Source: Salinisphaera orenii subsp. orenii MK-B5
GTDB lineage: Bacteria; Pseudomonadota; Gammaproteobacteria; Nevskiales; Salinisphaeraceae
Assembly: GCF_003788635.1 (NCBI RefSeq)
Contig: NZ_AYKH01000040.1
Coordinates: forward strand, 1-64,000
Length of the DNA stretch: 64,000 nt
Reading direction: 5' to 3'
Shown: positions 2,034 through 8,523 of the stretch, piece by piece
Position numbering within the stretch: position 1 is the first letter of the stretch
How the letters are laid out: the number at the start of each line of letters is the position of its first letter
Made by a program: the position numbers and the translations under genes
The notes under the pieces: generated by a model
The model's input: only the letters and a program-made list of their open reading frames with translations
The model's database searches: none
Told to the model about the DNA's origin: nothing

Positions 2034-3434
2034 ATGACCACGCAAGCCATTGTTCTGATTGTTTCCGCGCTGCTGCTGGGCGTCCTTGTCGGCGCGGCGC
2101 TGGCCGTGCTCTGGGCGCGTTCGGCCCAGGCCCGTCTGGAAAGCGCCCGCGACAGTGCCCGACAGACGGCCGAGAATGAGGCGGGCGCGCATGCGAAGAC
2201 GCGCGAGGCGCTCGAGTCCGTGCGCCAGGCGTTGACCGAGGCGCGCAGCGAGAACGCCCGGCTGGAGACGCGGCTCGACAGCGAACGCCGTAACAGCGAG
2301 GACAAGCTCAAGACGCTGACCGAAGCGCGCGAAGCCCTCACCCACCAGTTCAAGACGCTGTCCCAGGAAATCCTGGAAGAGAAAAGCCGGGCCTTCACCG
2401 AACAGAACAAGGCCAGCCTCGAGCCGTTGCTCAACCCGCTGCGCGAGCATATCGGCCGCTTCGAAAAGCAGGTCCGCGAAGCCTACGATCAGGAAAACCG
2501 CCAGCGCAGCGCGCTCGCCGAGCAGGTGCGCCTGCTGGAGCAGTCCAACAAGGCGATCGCCGAGGACGCGACCAATCTGGCCAACGCCCTGCGCGGCGAA
2601 TCCAAGACCCAGGGCAACTGGGGCGAGATGATTCTGGAGACGGTGCTGGAGCGCTCGGGCCTGGAGAAAGGCGTCCAGTACGAGACGCAGTTCTCGGTCA
2701 CCACCGAGGACGGCAGCCGCCAGCTGCCGGATGCGGTCGTGCATCTGCCGGAGCAGCGCAGCATCGTCGTCGACGCCAAGGTGTCGCTGACGGCCTATCT
2801 GCGGGTCCAGGAGGCCGGGGACGAGGACGCCCGAAAAACCGCACTCGCCGACCACGTCGCCTCGGTGCGGCGTCATCTCAAGCAGTTGTCGGCCAAGAAC
2901 TACCAGCATATCGACGCCATACAGACGCTCGACTACGTGTTCATGTTCATTCCCTCCGAGGCGGCCTATGTCGAGGCGCTGCGCGGCGATTTCGACCTGC
3001 AGCGCGAAGCGCTCGACGCCAATATCGCGCTGGTCTCGCCGACCACGCTCATGCCCATGCTGCGCGCCATCGCCAATCTCTGGCGGCTGCAGCAGCAGGA
3101 GGAGAACGCCGCCGAGATCGCCGAGAAGGCCGGCGCGCTGCACGACAAGTTCGTGGGTTTTCTCGACGATCTCGACAAGCTCGGCCGGGCCATGGATACG
3201 GCCAACAAGGCCTACGAGGGCGCGCGCAACAAGCTCGTCGAGGGCCGCGGCAACATCGTGCGCCGCAGCGAGGAGTTGAAGAAGATGGGTGCGAACACCA
3301 GCAAGTCGATCGGACAGTCCTGGCAGCGTAACGCCGCGCTGGCTGCTGCCCGCGGGGACGCCGACGACGGCATCTCCGACGACGAGGACGACGACAGTCT
3401 CACCGACCACGACGAGGCCCGCGACGCGCCATGA
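2034..3434 (+). CDS. rmuC: DNA recombination protein RmuC
   Basis: RmuC-family protein of 466 residues. The family limits recombination at inverted repeats and has a predicted restriction-endonuclease-like core. Residues 5-25 form one membrane anchor. Residues about 30-190 are a long charged coiled coil. The RmuC core follows, with the family-typical GNWGEMILE, VVDAKVSL and DYVFMFIPSE segments. The C-terminus ends in a strongly acidic tail (ISDDEDDDSLTDHDE) not needed by the family. The start chosen is the ATG at 2034, because it puts the membrane segment at the N-terminus; the open frame continues further upstream but that part is arginine-rich and unlike the family. The stop overlaps the next start (ATGA), so the two genes are probably co-transcribed. 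Confidence 0.93.
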   Translation: MTTQAIVLIVSALLLGVLVGAALAVLWARSAQARLESARDSARQTAENEAGAHAKTREALESVRQALTEARSENARLETRLDSERRNSEDKLKTLTEAREALTHQFKTLSQEILEEKSRAFTEQNKASLEPLLNPLREHIGRFEKQVREAYDQENRQRSALAEQVRLLEQSNKAIAEDATNLANALRGESKTQGNWGEMILETVLERSGLEKGVQYETQFSVTTEDGSRQLPDAVVHLPEQRSIVVDAKVSLTAYLRVQEAGDEDARKTALADHVASVRRHLKQLSAKNYQHIDAIQTLDYVFMFIPSEAAYVEALRGDFDLQREALDANIALVSPTTLMPMLRAIANLWRLQQQEENAAEIAEKAGALHDKFVGFLDDLDKLGRAMDTANKAYEGARNKLVEGRGNIVRRSEELKKMGANTSKSIGQSWQRNAALAAARGDADDGISDDEDDDSLTDHDEARDAP

Positions 3435-4534
3435 GCCTGACAGACCAACTCGCCGAACTGCGCGAACGCATCCCGCCGGTGAACGCCGAGCGCGCCGCCG
3501 AACTGGCGCGCTCCGGCGCGCTGCTGGTCGATATCCGCGAGGCCGATGAGATCGCCCAGGGCACGCCCGTGGGCGCGAAGCCGCTCGGCCGCGGCTTTCT
3601 GGAGATGCGTCTGGAGCAGGAGGTCAGCGGACCCGATCAAACGGTGCTGCTGTTGTGCGCGTCGGGCTCGCGTTCGCTGCTCGCCGCCGACCAGCTCGCG
3701 CGTCTGGGCTATAGCGACGTGCGTTCGGTCGAGGGCGGTTTCGATGCCTGGAAGGACGCCGGCCTGGCGTTCGAGACGCCCACCATGCTCGACAACGCCG
3801 ATCGCGCCCGCTATGCCCGCCAGCTCACCCTGCCCGAGGTCGGCGAGGCGGGCCAGACGAAACTGCGCGACGCGCGCGTGCTGGTCATCGGTGCCGGCGG
3901 GCTCGGCTCACCGGCGGCCTATTATCTGGCCGCGGCCGGCGTGGGGCATATCGGCATCGTCGATCACGACGTGGTCGATCGCTCCAACCTGCATCGCCAG
4001 ATCCTGCATCGCGATGCCAGCGTCGGTCAGCCCAAGGTGCGCTCGGCGATGGCCGCGCTCACGGCCCTCAACCCGAGTATCGCCATCGAGCCGATCGAGG
4101 CGCGGGTGAGCGCGGACAATGCGGCCGGGCTGGTCGACGACCACGATCTGGTGGTCGACGGCTCGGACAACTTCAGCGCCCGCTATGCGGTCAACGATGC
4201 CTGCGTGGCGGCGCGGATCCCGCTGGTCTATGGCGCGGTCGAGCGCTTCGCCGGTCAGGTCGGCGTGTTCCCGGCCGGCGGCCGGCCCTGTTACCGCTGT
4301 CTGTTCGCCAGCGCGCCGCCGGCGGGCAGCGCGCCGACCTGTGCCGAGGCCGGCGTGCTCGGGGTCGTGCCCGGCATCGTCGGCACGCTGCAGGCGCTGG
4401 AGGCGATCAAGCTGATCGTGGGCATGGCCGACACGCTCGCCGCGCGCGTGCTCACGCTGGATGCGGCCACGCACCGCTGGCGCAGCCTGCAGATTCCGGC
4501 CGATCCGGCCTGCCCGGCCTGCGGCACGCCGTAG
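3431..4534 (+). CDS. moeB: MoeB/ThiF-type adenylyltransferase with N-terminal rhodanese domain
   Basis: E1-like enzyme that adenylates the C-terminus of a sulfur-carrier protein such as MoaD or ThiS (367 aa). Residues 1-115 are a rhodanese domain with the active loop CASGSR (Cys76) that could carry persulfide sulfur. Residues 120-367 are the ThiF/MoeB domain, with the nucleotide loop GAGGLGS (154-160), DHDVVDRSNLHRQ, DGSDNF, and two zinc-binding pairs (CYRC at 287-290 and CPAC at 361-364). Cys304 in TCAEAG is in the place of the catalytic cysteine. MOCS3-like fusions normally have rhodanese at the C-terminus; here it is at the N-terminus, an order also seen in some proteobacteria. Its partner could belong to molybdopterin, thiamin or thiouridine synthesis, and no carrier gene is adjacent. 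Confidence 0.85.
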   Translation: MSLTDQLAELRERIPPVNAERAAELARSGALLVDIREADEIAQGTPVGAKPLGRGFLEMRLEQEVSGPDQTVLLLCASGSRSLLAADQLARLGYSDVRSVEGGFDAWKDAGLAFETPTMLDNADRARYARQLTLPEVGEAGQTKLRDARVLVIGAGGLGSPAAYYLAAAGVGHIGIVDHDVVDRSNLHRQILHRDASVGQPKVRSAMAALTALNPSIAIEPIEARVSADNAAGLVDDHDLVVDGSDNFSARYAVNDACVAARIPLVYGAVERFAGQVGVFPAGGRPCYRCLFASAPPAGSAPTCAEAGVLGVVPGIVGTLQALEAIKLIVGMADTLAARVLTLDAATHRWRSLQIPADPACPACGTP

Positions 4535-4660: not shown

Positions 4661-6367
4661 ATGCCGGCCTTTTTTCTGATCGTCATGGCGCTGGTCGCCT
4701 TCTATCTGGGCTATCGTTTCTATTCGCGGTATCTGGCCGAGAAGGTCTACGCGCTCGATCCCAATTTCCGCACCCCGGCGCATGAAATGCGCGACGGTGT
4801 CGACTTCGTGCCGACGCACAAGCACGTGCTGCTCGGGCACCACTTCACCTCGGTGGCGGGCGCCGCCCCGATCGTCGGCCCGGCGATCGCGGTCTACTGG
4901 GGTTGGCTGCCGGCGCTGACCTGGGTGATCCTGGGCACCATCTTCGCGGCCGGCGTGCACGATCTCGGCTCGATCGTCGTATCCGCGCGCAATCGCGGCC
5001 AGAATATCGGCACGCTCTCCGGCAAGGTCATCAGCGCGCGCGCCAGTACCCTGTTTCTACTGATTATTTTCTTTCTGCTAACGCTCGTGAACGCCGTGTT
5101 CGGCGTGGTGATGGCGATCCTGTTCGAGTCCAACCCGGGCGCGGTGATCCCTGCGCTGATCGTGATTCCGATCGCGGTCTTCATCGGGCAGTGGGCCTAT
5201 CGGCTGGGGCGTTCCATCATCATCCCGTCGATCGTCGGCCTGCTGCTGCTCTATATCGCGATCCCGATCGGCCAGGCGTATCCGATCGAGGTCGACGGGT
5301 TGGCTTCGGCGATCGGCCTCGAGGTGCGCACCACCTGGATCCTGTTGATCTTCGCCTACACCTGGATCGCTTCGCGCCTGCCGGTGTGGATCCTGTTGCA
5401 GCCGCGCGACTACATCAACGGCCAGCAGTTGATCGTGGCGCTGTTCGTGATCTTCCTCGGCGTGCTCGTCGGCTGGGATACGGTTAGCGCGCCCGCGGTC
5501 AACGAGGTCTCGGCGGATTCGCCGCACTGGTTCCCGTATCTGTTCATCACCGTCGCCTGTGGCGCGATCTCGGGCTTTCACAGCCTGGTCGCGTCGGGCA
5601 CGACGTCCAAGCAGCTCGACAAGGAGCCCGAAGCCCGCTTCGTCGGCTACGGCGGCGCCCTCGGCGAGGGCGCGCTGGCGCTGGCCGCGATCCTGGCCTG
5701 CACCGCGGGTCTGGGCGCAGCCGGCGAATGGAATACCGCCTACGCCGACTTCGGCGCCGCGTCGGGCGGGGCGCTCGGCCATTTCGTGACCGGTACCGGC
5801 CACTTCCTTAGCAACCTCGGCATTCCGGCTACGCTCGGCGCGACCTTCGCCGCGGTGGTGGTCATCACCTTCGCCGGGACGACGATGGACACCGGCATCC
5901 GGCTGCAGCGCTACATTCTCGCCGAGATCAGCGAACTGGCCGGCTTCAAGGCGCTGTCGGGGCGTGTGAATCTGCTTACTACGCTGGCCGTGCTGATCCC
6001 GCTGGGTCTGGCGCTGGTGCCCGGCGGCGACGACGCCGGCGGCAAGGGCTTCGCCTTCGGTCGCCTGTGGACGCTGTTCGGTACCACGAACCAGCTCACC
6101 GCCGGCCTGGCGCTGTCGGTGATTGCGGTCTGGGTGCTGGCACGCAACCGCAATCCGCTCGCGGCGATCGTGCCGCTGGTGTTCCTGCTGTTCATGACCA
6201 CCTGGGCGCTGCTGCTCAATCTGGTCGACTTCTTCCAGAAGGGTGACTGGCTGCTGCTGGCCATGGACGCGGCGATCTTCGTCCTCGCGGCCTGGCTGAT
6301 CGTGGAAGCGGTGACCGCGCTCAACCGCCAGCGCGGCGCGCGCGACCCGGCGGCCGCGGATCGATGA
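4661..6367 (+). CDS. cstA: Carbon starvation protein CstA family transporter
   Basis: Multi-span membrane protein of 568 residues, of the CstA/peptide-pyruvate transporter family. Members take up pyruvate or peptides, often under carbon limitation. It opens with a membrane helix and the family-typical stretches HKHVLLGHHFTSVAGAAPI and GPAIAVYWGWLPAL near residues 48-85. About a dozen or more further hydrophobic segments follow, including GAISGFHSLVASGTTSKQL. E. coli CstA is near 700 residues, so this is the shorter type. A good ribosome-binding site (GGGGAGAT) precedes the ATG. The stop overlaps the next start by four bases (ATGA), placing it first in an operon with two small cysteine-motif proteins. 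No tandem second cstA copy is present. Confidence 0.9.
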   Translation: MPAFFLIVMALVAFYLGYRFYSRYLAEKVYALDPNFRTPAHEMRDGVDFVPTHKHVLLGHHFTSVAGAAPIVGPAIAVYWGWLPALTWVILGTIFAAGVHDLGSIVVSARNRGQNIGTLSGKVISARASTLFLLIIFFLLTLVNAVFGVVMAILFESNPGAVIPALIVIPIAVFIGQWAYRLGRSIIIPSIVGLLLLYIAIPIGQAYPIEVDGLASAIGLEVRTTWILLIFAYTWIASRLPVWILLQPRDYINGQQLIVALFVIFLGVLVGWDTVSAPAVNEVSADSPHWFPYLFITVACGAISGFHSLVASGTTSKQLDKEPEARFVGYGGALGEGALALAAILACTAGLGAAGEWNTAYADFGAASGGALGHFVTGTGHFLSNLGIPATLGATFAAVVVITFAGTTMDTGIRLQRYILAEISELAGFKALSGRVNLLTTLAVLIPLGLALVPGGDDAGGKGFAFGRLWTLFGTTNQLTAGLALSVIAVWVLARNRNPLAAIVPLVFLLFMTTWALLLNLVDFFQKGDWLLLAMDAAIFVLAAWLIVEAVTALNRQRGARDPAAADR

Positions 6368-6819
6368 TCACGGCGTGCCGAACCGATCGCCCCGAGGCGA
6401 GCGCCGGCGCGGTGACGACGCACCAGGTGATCCTGGTGCGCGAGCAGGATGCGCAGCACAGTGGCTCCGGCTGTTGCGGCCGTCTGGGTGCGCGCGATTC
6501 GGCGCTCGGCGGGGCGGCGGACTTCAGCCACAGCCGGGCGCGCATGGAACGGATCGGGGCCGTCTATCGCGACCTGGCCGCGGCCGCGCCCGAGCTCGAT
6601 CTGATCGTGGCCGACCCGCGTAACCTGCTCTGGCTGTATCCGACCGTCTGGCGGGCCGCGCGTCGCCGCGGCCTCGGTTGGGCAGCGACGATTCGCTCCA
6701 TGGCCCGGGCCGGCGCGCCGATGGCGGTGGTCTGCGACGGTGACACGCTGTATTCGGGGCGTCTGCCCGCGACCGACACCGTGGTCGCGCGGGTGCTCGA
6801 GCGCATCGCGCAGGATTGA
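6364..6819 (+). CDS. Conserved-looking small protein with SGSGCCGRL motif, cstA operon
   Basis: I do not recognise a named family. The protein has 151 residues, no signal peptide and no membrane helix. A short variable N-terminus leads to a strand (HQVILVRE) and then the motif SGSGCCGRLG (residues 33-42), whose vicinal Cys37-Cys38 pair in a glycine-rich loop looks like a redox or metal-binding site. The middle (residues 60-115) is helical and the end has VCDGDTLYSGRLP, suggesting an alpha/beta, possibly thioredoxin-like, fold. It overlaps cstA by four bases and is followed by the Cys-Cys-tailed protein, so translation is probably coupled. The function is unknown; the neighbourhood suggests a role coupled to CstA or to the downstream ATPase. 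Confidence 0.7.
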   Translation: MITACRTDRPEASAGAVTTHQVILVREQDAQHSGSGCCGRLGARDSALGGAADFSHSRARMERIGAVYRDLAAAAPELDLIVADPRNLLWLYPTVWRAARRRGLGWAATIRSMARAGAPMAVVCDGDTLYSGRLPATDTVVARVLERIAQD

Positions 6820-6866
6820 ACGCGCGGCAACACGGTGACCGCATTCATCACGACAGGCATGTCGAC

Positions 6867-7130
6867 ATGGCCGACGAGAAAAGCCTGTGGCGTCGGTTCT
6901 CCGACTACCACGACGAACTGTTCATGGCGCCCTGGCGCGCCGGCATCGCCCGCGAGGCGCGCTCCGAAGAAGACGTGCTCGTCGCCCTGCTGTTTCTGGA
7001 GGCGCTGGGGATTCCCGGCCCGGCCGACTACTACGCGCTCGAACTCTATCCGGATCTGATCGAGTCGTTCCACCGCTGGCACCAGCGCATGGGCATGGAC
7101 ACCTTTCCCGAAGCCGGCGTGTGCTGCTAG
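6867..7130 (+). CDS. Small protein ending in Cys-Cys (cory-CC-star family)
   Basis: An 87-residue soluble protein whose last two residues are cysteines directly before the stop (VCC). From memory this matches the small family annotated as cory-CC-star, found beside ArsA-like ATPases. Visible features are an aromatic N-terminal helix (SLWRRFSDYHDELFMAPW), an acidic middle with LLFLEALGIPGPADYYALELYPDL, and a short linker before the Cys-Cys tail. The ATG at 6867 is preferred; in-frame codons back to 6816 would need a TTG start. It is the third gene of the cstA cluster. The ATPase that normally neighbours such proteins comes next, but is separated here by a repeat. A terminal CC pair suggests metal binding, redox chemistry or tail recognition, none of which is demonstrated. 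Confidence 0.75.
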   Translation: MADEKSLWRRFSDYHDELFMAPWRAGIAREARSEEDVLVALLFLEALGIPGPADYYALELYPDLIESFHRWHQRMGMDTFPEAGVCC

Positions 7131-7158
7131 CGCCCGTTGGTTGTTCGTCCGTGCGCCG

Positions 7159-7367
7159 CGTTGGAGACCGCCAAGCGTGTCCGGCAGGGCGCGAGCCGCC
7201 GGGGCCGGGTCTGCCACAACCGGGGTTTGCCACGCCGCCGGGTGCCCCTGGTTATGGCGGGGCGTCCGATTCTTCAGCCCCAGCGCCGATGACATGGACA
7301 AGATGTGGCCATCCAGCGTTGCAGCGCGCCTGTACAGCGTGACGGCGCGAGCCCGCGCGACGCCTCC
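7159..7367 (+). repeat. Dispersed intergenic repeat, copy 1
   Basis: The only gene-free part of 7131-7560 with recognisable structure. It is diverged but clearly alignable by eye to the reverse complements of 51122-51341 and 22202-22316. Shared blocks in order are CGTTGGANACCG, GTGTCC.GCA.GGCG.GAGCCG, AACGCCG-like CACGCCGCCGGGTG, and GGCCATCCAGCGTTGCAGC (with 51122-51341 only). It carries no open frame consistent with a protein and no transposase. It lies between the Cys-Cys-tailed protein and the ATPase, which suggests insertion into a former operon. In the remaining 7368-7560 I see nothing beyond GC-rich spacer. Confidence 0.6.
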
Positions 7368-7560
7368 TCTGGCCGCAGCACGACGCTTGGCGCGCAGGCC
7401 TGCGACCCGTCAACCGGCCATAGCGCCCGGTCGCGCCCACGATCGCGATACGCGGCGATCGGAACCTCGGCTGCGCTTCGCCTGGCCCGCGAGCGTCAAA
7501 AGCTCGCGCGACGCGTATGGCCGACACGCGCGCCGCGCATGAACCCGCTGGAGACGCCCG

Positions 7561-8523
7561 ATGGCGAATGAGCACCACCACGACGGCCCGACCCGCTTCT
7601 ACCTGTTCGGCGGCAAGGGCGGGGTCGGCAAGACCACGCTGGCCGCGGCCCACGCGCTGCGCCTGGCCGGCGAGGGCCATCGCACCCTGCTGGTCTCGAC
7701 CGACCCGGCGCATTCGGTCTCCGACCTGCTCGAGACGCGGCTGGGCGATCAGCCGACCGCGGCCGGCGAGCGCCTCTGGGCGATGGAGATCGATCCGGAG
7801 GCCGATGCACGCGCCTATGTCGAAGGCATCCGCGAGGACGCCGAGGCGGCCGTGTCCAAGGCGGTGCTGCCGGCGCTCGACCGGCATCTCAAGCTCGCGG
7901 TGCAGGCGCCGGGCACGGCCGAGTCGGCGCTGTTCGATCGCTTCACCCGCATCATGACCTGGTGCCCCGGCGATTACGACCGCATCGTCTTCGATACCGC
8001 GCCCAGCGGCCATACGCTGCGCCTGCTCACGCTGCCGTCGATGCTGGGCGCCTGGGTCGAGGGCCTGCAGGCCCAGCGCGCGAAGGTGAACAAGCTTCAG
8101 GGCATGTGGCGCACGATGGCCGGCGTGAGCGAACCCGAGCGCGAGGATCGCGTACTCGTACGGCTTCGCCAGCGCGCGGAGCGCTTCGCCGAGGCGCGCC
8201 GGCGCCTGCACGCCGAGGCCGTGTTTCATCCGGTGCTGCTGGCCGAGCGCCTGCCGATCGAGGAGACCGCGCGCGTGATCGAGCAGCTGCGCGATACCCA
8301 GATTCCCATCGGCGCGCTCTACGTGAACCGACTCTGGCCGGAGGACCCGGCCAGCGCCTTCGTCACCGAGCGCGTCGCCCAGCAGAACGAATATCTGGCC
8401 GAGATCCGCGATCGCTTCGCGGCCTTCGAACGCGTCGAGGTCGCCCAGAGCGCGCGCGATATCGTCGGCCGCCACCAGCTCGTGGATCTGGCCGCACGCC
8501 TGGGCGACGCCGCGCCCGATTGA
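7561..8523 (+). CDS. ArsA/Get3-family ATPase
   Basis: Soluble SIMIBI-class ATPase of 320 residues with a single ATPase domain. The deviant Walker A is FGGKGGVGKTT (residues 16-26), switch I is DPAHSVSD (48-55) and switch II is DTAPSGHTLRLL (145-156). It has one cysteine only (Cys135, in TWCPGDYD). It therefore lacks both the CxxC zinc-dimerisation motif of Get3 and the three metalloid-binding cysteines of ArsA. That argues against arsenite efflux and against a classical tail-anchored-protein targeting factor. The N-terminus has a short His cluster (EHHHDG). The neighbouring small CC-tailed protein is the likely partner by association. A GC-rich repeat-containing gap of 430 bases separates it from that protein, so it may have its own promoter. 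Confidence 0.85.
   Translation: MANEHHHDGPTRFYLFGGKGGVGKTTLAAAHALRLAGEGHRTLLVSTDPAHSVSDLLETRLGDQPTAAGERLWAMEIDPEADARAYVEGIREDAEAAVSKAVLPALDRHLKLAVQAPGTAESALFDRFTRIMTWCPGDYDRIVFDTAPSGHTLRLLTLPSMLGAWVEGLQAQRAKVNKLQGMWRTMAGVSEPEREDRVLVRLRQRAERFAEARRRLHAEAVFHPVLLAERLPIEETARVIEQLRDTQIPIGALYVNRLWPEDPASAFVTERVAQQNEYLAEIRDRFAAFERVEVAQSARDIVGRHQLVDLAARLGDAAPD

Follow-up and report, generated by a model that had tools for sequence, protein, structure and literature searches.

Why should a transporter be encoded in one row with two small proteins that each carry a pair of adjacent cysteines, and with an ATPase that has neither the metalloid nor the zinc cysteine site of its relatives? The question is raised by a gene cluster on contig NZ_AYKH01000040.1 of Salinisphaera orenii subsp. 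orenii MK-B5 (assembly GCF_003788635.1), of which the first 64,000 nucleotides, hereafter the window, were analyzed. The cluster consists of cstA, the gene of a protein with the motif SGSGCCGRLG (the CCGRL protein), the gene of a cory-CC-star protein (CC-star for short), which ends in Cys-Cys, and the gene of a single-domain ArsA/Get3-family ATPase. The module exists as described, most of it was known before, and the linkage of its genes is strong; for its chemistry we infer a relay of thiols (or selenols) that, with the ATPase as its timer, would activate a CstA-type importer of pyruvate or a related keto acid, a reading to which we give a probability of about 45%. What is novel in the cluster is the CCGRL protein, whose family is without a name. 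As far as literature searches reach, this family with its candidate selenocysteine (Sec) variant is new here, as is the Cys-Cys theme common to unrelated CstA partners.

The cstA gene cluster and its conservation

The four open reading frames (ORFs) lie on the plus strand, as an earlier note on this DNA had described (Table 1). The start of the CCGRL frame overlaps the cstA stop codon as ATGA. The 430 bases between the CC-star and ATPase genes hold only mechanical ORFs; tight coupling is therefore shown for cstA and CCGRL only. CstA, the only one found in this genome, scores far short of what the E. coli CstA equivalog demands (NF011590, 247 vs. 1188 bits). By analogy with work in E. coli, from which the substrate is taken, it is probably an importer of pyruvate or another keto acid with protons. 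The CCGRL protein has cysteines at positions 5, 37, 38 and 124 and matched no Pfam or NCBIfam family in profile searches. In CC-star the only cysteines are Cys86 and Cys87, and the stop codon follows directly. The ATPase contains the motifs GKGGVGKT and DTAPSGHT, has a lone cysteine (Cys135), and fails the ArsA equivalog (TIGR04291, 141 vs. 650 bits).

Gene order from cstA through CC-star to the ATPase is the same in all 100 homologous loci compared (20/20 wider stretches and 80/80 loci from a contig scan), which makes the arrangement more than chance. The set spans Gammaproteobacteria, Bacillota (Bacillaceae and Thermoactinomycetaceae), Gemmatimonadota, Spirochaetota and Balneolota. The CC-star profile NF041419 was positive in 17 of 61 genomes around the window (its own, 13 of the same genus, one of the same family and two of the same order); among 397 sampled Pseudomonadota genomes it was positive in 10, the window's own included. 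The wider stretches come from 20 of the 26 positive genomes, and the scan loci are the best 80 of 553 confirmed, a set rich in Psychrobacter. The exact Cys-Cys tail is present on CC-star in 100/100 loci, a count in which ranking by similarity may favor complete tails. In a profile search of 200 Bacilli genomes, CC-star was found in 23 (25 places), and all 25 matches extended to the final column of the profile; no Sec form was seen among these places. The earlier note had made its reading depend on a neighborhood conserved across unrelated genera and on a conserved terminal Cys-Cys, and both are found.

Among 100 aligned ATPases (the window and 99 of the 100 loci, one row without a clear P-loop being dropped), the CxxC zinc motif of Get3 occurs in none, nine have no cysteine at all, and the best-kept cysteine column is occupied in 63. 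The absence of both the Get3 CxxC and the ArsA cysteines, read in the window's ATPase by the earlier note, is supported. CC-star is modeled as helical (pLDDT 73, pTM 0.37), with no useful fold match in the PDB. Its most hydrophobic 19 residues have a mean Kyte-Doolittle value of 1.46 (median 1.07 across the 100 loci).

The core of this module is known. Castillo and Saier (2010; PMC2963123, cited from the part of the text available) described ArsA homologues of about 330 aa together with CstA and a CstX of about 90 aa in 26 cases, with co-evolving CstA, CstX and ArsA trees and with loss of the ArsA cysteines. We take CstX to be cory-CC-star from its size and context. Those operons have the same transporter family, a similar ~90-aa partner, a single-domain cysteine-poor ATPase and the same operon logic as the window; they differ in that the terminal Cys-Cys and a CCGRL protein are not mentioned in the part of the paper available, and the window adds this second vicinal-cysteine protein between cstA and CC-star. 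The cstA, CC-star and ATPase set is widespread and its gene link strong. The association with cstA, which the earlier note had offered as mere inference, is the strongest part of its reading: the link holds in 100/100 loci, and it had been published in 2010.

Table 1. Genes discussed in the text. Positions refer to the window unless a locus is named; L and G numbers are our labels for loci and genomes.
Feature	Position	Strand	Description
cstA	4661-6367	+	568 aa, short-type CstA-family transporter; PF02554 452 bits (profile search, cut-off 27)
CCGRL protein	6364-6819	+	151 aa; vicinal Cys37-Cys38 in SGSGCCGRLG; DPRN motif
cory-CC-star protein (putative CstX)	6867-7130	+	87 aa; NF041419 112.1 bits (cut-off 80); Cys-Cys end
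single-domain ArsA/Get3-family ATPase	7561-8523	+	320 aa; TIGR00345 (GET3/ArsA/TRC40) 243 bits (cut-off 135); without metalloid or zinc cysteine site
TGA-bearing CCGRL	L222 (G595)		first Cys codon is TGA
TGA-bearing CCGRL	L225 (G598)		first Cys codon is TGA
TGA-bearing CCGRL	L212 (Cytobacillus)		first Cys codon is TGA
SO_0444 family Cu/Zn efflux gene	L192 3554-4747	-	NF033936 442-457 bits over the three genes (cut-off 300)
SO_0444 family Cu/Zn efflux gene	L193 3102-4271	-	as above
SO_0444 family Cu/Zn efflux gene	L197 2730-3956	-	as above

Cys-Cys partners of CstA-family transporters

The closest functional parallel of CC-star is YbdD/YjiX, the Cys-Cys-ended partners of E. coli CstA and BtsT. 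Pyruvate uptake in E. coli falls to 20% of wild type without ybdD and to 13% without cstA, and the authors concluded that both are required (PMC5847655, available in part). YbdD ends in ARCC and YjiX in MRCC. The E. coli gene order is btsT, yjiX, yjiA; when 5426 E. coli genomes were searched with the yjiX-yjiA stretch, 5332 matched 80% or more of it. In one locus (L205) YjiX is accompanied by a YjiA homologue that is a CobW-type GTPase (PF02492), and a CxCC motif occurs in YjiA of E. coli itself. For the YbdD family (PF04328) the 30 best-scoring loci were read: 29 have a Cys-Cys end and one was unparsed, where the parser of tails demanded a final cysteine and not the residue preceding it. One more member (L208) ends in CPC. 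The E. coli systems resemble the window in having a CstA-family transporter with a small Cys-Cys-ended partner; for BtsT-YjiX a P-loop NTPase adjoins, and for CstA-YbdD the partner is needed for pyruvate uptake. They differ in the length of CstA (about 700 aa), in a partner that is not homologous to CC-star, in an NTPase that is a CobW-type GTPase, and in that no CCGRL protein was seen.

The two kinds of partner do not occur together in the genomes sampled. Among the 397 Pseudomonadota, CstA is present in 169, the YbdD family in 71, CC-star in 10, and both partners in none; all 71 genomes with the YbdD family and all 10 with CC-star have CstA. The absence of overlap has a chance probability of 0.0035 if genomes are treated as independent, which they are not. 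Twenty CstA loci that belong to other types, eight with and twelve without the YbdD family, had no ArsA-type match nearby. No mutual homology was found among CC-star, the YbdD family and CCGRL (hhalign 0.9%, 0.5% and 1.2%).

In CstA itself, Cys300, in the motif ACGA(I/V)SGFH (ACGAISGFH in the window), is invariant in the 72 CstA sequences chosen for alignment and is kept whether the accompanying partner is CC-star, CCGRL, YbdD or none that is known. The idea that this invariant cysteine is tied to having a partner was dropped, since it is equally present in 12 partnerless CstA.

These parallels matter for E. coli itself. The 2018 paper that found the CstA-YbdD pair left the role of YbdD open, so far as its available part goes (PMC5847655), and the occurrence of the same end group, Cys-Cys or its form with selenium, on unrelated CstA partners makes that role directly testable. 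Some Epsilonproteobacteria have Cys-Sec ends in the YbdD family (DUF466), in a study whose main text, as far as available, is without the word CstA (PMC4607533).

The CCGRL family and its candidate selenocysteine variant

The CCGRL gene is present in all 14 genomes of the window's genus (its own and 13 others). A single further genome of the same family has CC-star, and CCGRL was not found in it. A tblastn search with the window protein recovered it in one of the 80 scan loci, from Halobacillus, at the same position. A CCGRL profile found it in 9 of 200 Bacilli genomes (10 places), directly downstream of cstA in 9/10 places and followed by CC-star and the ATPase in 3/10; a plasmid of Cytobacillus spongiae (L212) has all four genes in a row. 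CC-star is present in five of the nine CCGRL-bearing Bacilli genomes vs. 23/200 overall. In 18 aligned rows, with TGA read as Cys, R26, Cys37-Cys38, G65, DPRN and G126 (window numbering) are invariant. Branches marked for CCGRL on the ATPase tree force at least three changes, and its gain or loss has therefore been repeated, although long branches make the tree unsure; a single origin is not supported by it.

CCGRL probably has a thioredoxin-like fold, judging from models. Its structural matches are mainly of the thioredoxin fold. The best has Z 6.2 (95 residues at 3.8 A), and according to the tool, scores in this range may mean only a common arrangement. In Foldseek searches with the CCGRL model the best row is a designed protein (E 0.047) and none reaches E 0.001. 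Three of five homologues match Thioredoxin_3 (PF13192) below the cut-off.

A relation to ArsD and to VcpD (ArsD-related vicinal cysteine protein) was also considered. Like CCGRL, these proteins have vicinal cysteines after strand 1 and a C-terminal D/N-G-x-x-x-x-G stretch, and they occur with an ArsA-family ATPase. In contrast, the third ArsD cysteine is missing from CCGRL and the similarity stays below threshold: hhalign gives 33% with ArsD over the C-terminal 27 columns, three of 18 members match VcpD (NF047871), with a best E of 0.0023, and the ArsD-type entry 3ktb is among the structural rows at E about 1. For the window CCGRL and five homologues there is no match to ArsD (PF06953) up to E 1. 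CCGRL as a true ArsD has no above-threshold support from PF06953, hhalign, VcpD or the five homologues.

The sequences of three homologues, though not the copy in the window, make the CCGRL family a good candidate selenoprotein family, one so far undescribed. The 19 homologues in hand, the window excluded, are eight from its own genus and 11 from Bacilli. In 3/19 (3/11 in Bacilli; Table 1) an in-frame TGA stands exactly at the first cysteine of the pair, the place of Cys37. Coding similarity extends on both sides of the TGA, at 44% between Halobacillus and Cytobacillus over residues 1-125 (tblastn). A strong tRNA-Sec match (65 to 72 bits, 92 to 93 bases) was obtained in seven of ten genomes tested, among them G595 and G598 at about 69 bits. 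The window's own genome, G768 and G557 (Halobacillus) gave at most 51 bits; matches at that level are read as tRNA-Ser-like, because the tRNA-Sec family matches in all 14 control genomes. Across the ten genomes, a TGA in CCGRL occurs only where tRNA-Sec is strong. In G595, cstA is preceded by tRNA-Sec at a distance of about 5 kb and by selB at about 3 kb, a LytS-type sensor kinase gene lying between, and the Cytobacillus plasmid carries selA and selD; this survey of the machinery covered a part of its genes in each TGA genome. The annotated start of the Cytobacillus spongiae protein (5684 of L212) lies past the TGA at 5648, and such a candidate selenoprotein family is therefore easily missed.

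Each of the three TGA codons is followed by a hairpin whose loop begins with two G residues, a putative SECIS element. Its strength is equalled by 9/468, 11/392 and 13/560 of the TGAs in the same loci (2 to 3%), and 1/15 Cys rows (of 17 in hand) has a hairpin as strong as the weakest TGA case; the criteria were set after the sequences had been inspected. No CCGRL-like family is among the 119 in the table of a 2026 selenoprotein review (PMC13188914). The nearest precedent is the DUF466/KCU-star selenoproteins of the YbdD family (NF033934; PMC4607533, in part), in which the vicinal cysteine pair may likewise be Cys-Sec. There the pair is C-terminal with Sec second; that of CCGRL lies within the chain, in what is probably a thioredoxin-like fold, and its Sec would come first. 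That one small protein appears to have a selenium-for-cysteine variant hints at a redox step in the work of the transporter.

Several features were noted around these loci. G598 carries two CstA-CCGRL loci, one (L225) with the TGA, CC-star and the ATPase, the other (L229) with Cys-Cys and without the latter two genes. An ORF of about 180-224 aa stands upstream of cstA in all five CCGRL-only loci (L226-L230); two of these ORFs were searched and matched no family above cut-off. Downstream of cstA-CCGRL in L227, on the opposite strand, are selA and an AIRS-type selD-like gene, the pair there being Cys-Cys; ORFs of similar appearance occur in L228 and L230. Persulfide-type genes (a CsoR/CstR-like regulator, DsrE and rhodanese/MBL) lie near cstA-CCGRL in L226 (3832-5850) and L212 (8834-11725), in L212 together with TusA.

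A proposed thiol relay and its rivals

The relay starts from what is observed, namely gene linkage, conserved residues, and TGA at the first cysteine with selenocysteine genes present. Pyruvate as the substrate, the redox role, the direction of transfer and the role of the ATPase are our suggestions. CC-star would be the counterpart, not a homologue, of YbdD/YjiX, with the C-terminal Cys-Cys as its working group, and CstA would need it for transport. The vicinal pair of such a partner may act on CstA, whose own candidate thiol is Cys300, its one cysteine conserved throughout, or on a bound intermediate. CCGRL, a putative vicinal dithiol (selenolthiol in some Bacilli), would reduce, load or resolve the thiols of CC-star or CstA, and might in this way recharge the vicinal pair of the partner. 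The ArsA/Get3-fold ATPase would bind and release the partner in an ATP-driven cycle that times its binding; YjiA, a different P-loop NTPase, may do likewise beside YjiX. LytS/LytTR-type sensor genes adjoining cstA in three Bacilli loci were counted in favor. In general form, which we put forward only tentatively, CstA-family transporters would be thiol-activated. On three or more occasions they would have acquired small partner proteins, unrelated to each other, that work through a vicinal Cys-Cys; two of these three families could carry Sec in the pair, and in two cases a P-loop NTPase (ArsA-type or CobW-type) would have been added to service it. CCGRL would then be an undescribed thioredoxin-like (Sec-Cys) selenoprotein family.

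Several results weigh against this relay. As many as 88 of the 169 CstA genomes have neither the YbdD family nor CC-star, and the pairing rule is therefore not universal; Cys300 is kept in the 12 partnerless CstA as well. No ORF ending in Cys-Cys was found within 3 kb downstream at the 12 partnerless cstA loci, where the same kind of test recovers the known partner in 7/7 YbdD-family loci (one ending in CPC); a partner is thus not always needed, or is located elsewhere. CstX was called a single-TMS (transmembrane segment) protein by Castillo and Saier (PMC2963123, in part). The CCGRL profile matched in two of the 20 CC-star genomes reached through loci; the family is rare, occurring in G595 alone among 201 genomes of its phylum, and more Sec homologues could not be gained there, as the order of G595 holds one genome and the phylum sample gave G595 alone. 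One homologue (L224, 5757-6176, minus strand) has no cstA within the 12 kb around it. The two-sequence model of CCGRL, although of thioredoxin topology, is poor (pLDDT 56). Five of the seven genomes with strong tRNA-Sec have no TGA in the CCGRL found, so that selenocysteine genes alone do not predict TGA, and no Rfam SECIS family matched at the CCGRL TGAs. The LytS/LytTR genes are seen in only 3/109 loci.

Castillo and Saier (2010) proposed that ATP hydrolysis by the ATPase directly powers transport through CstA, on the model of ArsA and ArsB, and that CC-star physically connects the two. The co-evolving trees of that published proposal (PMC2963123, in part) and the constant gene order in 100/100 loci agree with it, but E. 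coli CstA works with YbdD (PMC5847655, in part), and the 20 loci of other types have no ArsA-type match nearby; we think it unlikely. About equally unlikely, in our view, is a route of metal delivery, in which the CC tail and the CCGRL pair would hand a soft metal such as Zn to CstA and the NTPase would act as a metallochaperone. Vicinal cysteines can serve as metal ligands, the weak ArsD-type similarity of CCGRL points the same way, and the title of a paper on CobW states that related proteins prefer Zn(II) (PMC7895991); the YjiA homologue of L205 is of the CobW type, and E. coli YjiA carries its CxCC. At 3/12 partnerless cstA loci the next gene encodes an SO_0444 family Cu/Zn efflux permease that has Cys-Cys no more than four residues from its end (Table 1), a family listed as selenoproteins in the 2026 review (PMC13188914). 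Metal delivery is kept as an option because the YjiA-type GTPase may bind zinc and because these permease genes adjoin cstA. Against it, the ATPase has no conserved cysteine, L212 and L226 are the sole loci with a CsoR/CstR-type gene of those whose neighbors were read, and TGA at the first cysteine suggests redox use. Sec at both kinds of partner site, in CCGRL and in the YbdD family, favors redox chemistry over plain metal holding.

The earlier note had seen in the CC tail a client sequence, recognized by the ATPase as Get3 recognizes tail anchors. The family of the ATPase and the invariance of the tail fit this proposal, but the last 19 residues of CC-star are not hydrophobic (Kyte-Doolittle -0.65), and the same end occurs on YbdD-family proteins beside CstA without an ArsA-type ATPase nearby; it is not favored and appears improbable. 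An arsenic (metalloid) efflux system built on CstA, which might come to mind as the cluster pairs an ATPase of the ArsA type with a protein weakly similar to ArsD, is less credible still. The metalloid cysteines of ArsA are missing, the ArsA equivalog score is low, ArsD is not matched, and the published operon survey, as far as available, has no ars genes with CstA, CstX and ArsA (PMC2963123).

Upstream of cstA the window also contains a gene of the rhodanese-MoeB type (NF006444) at 3431-4534. It had no tblastn match in 12 of the wider loci or in the 80 scan loci; in the remaining eight wider loci, all of the same genus, it is present, adjacent in six and about 3 kb away in two.

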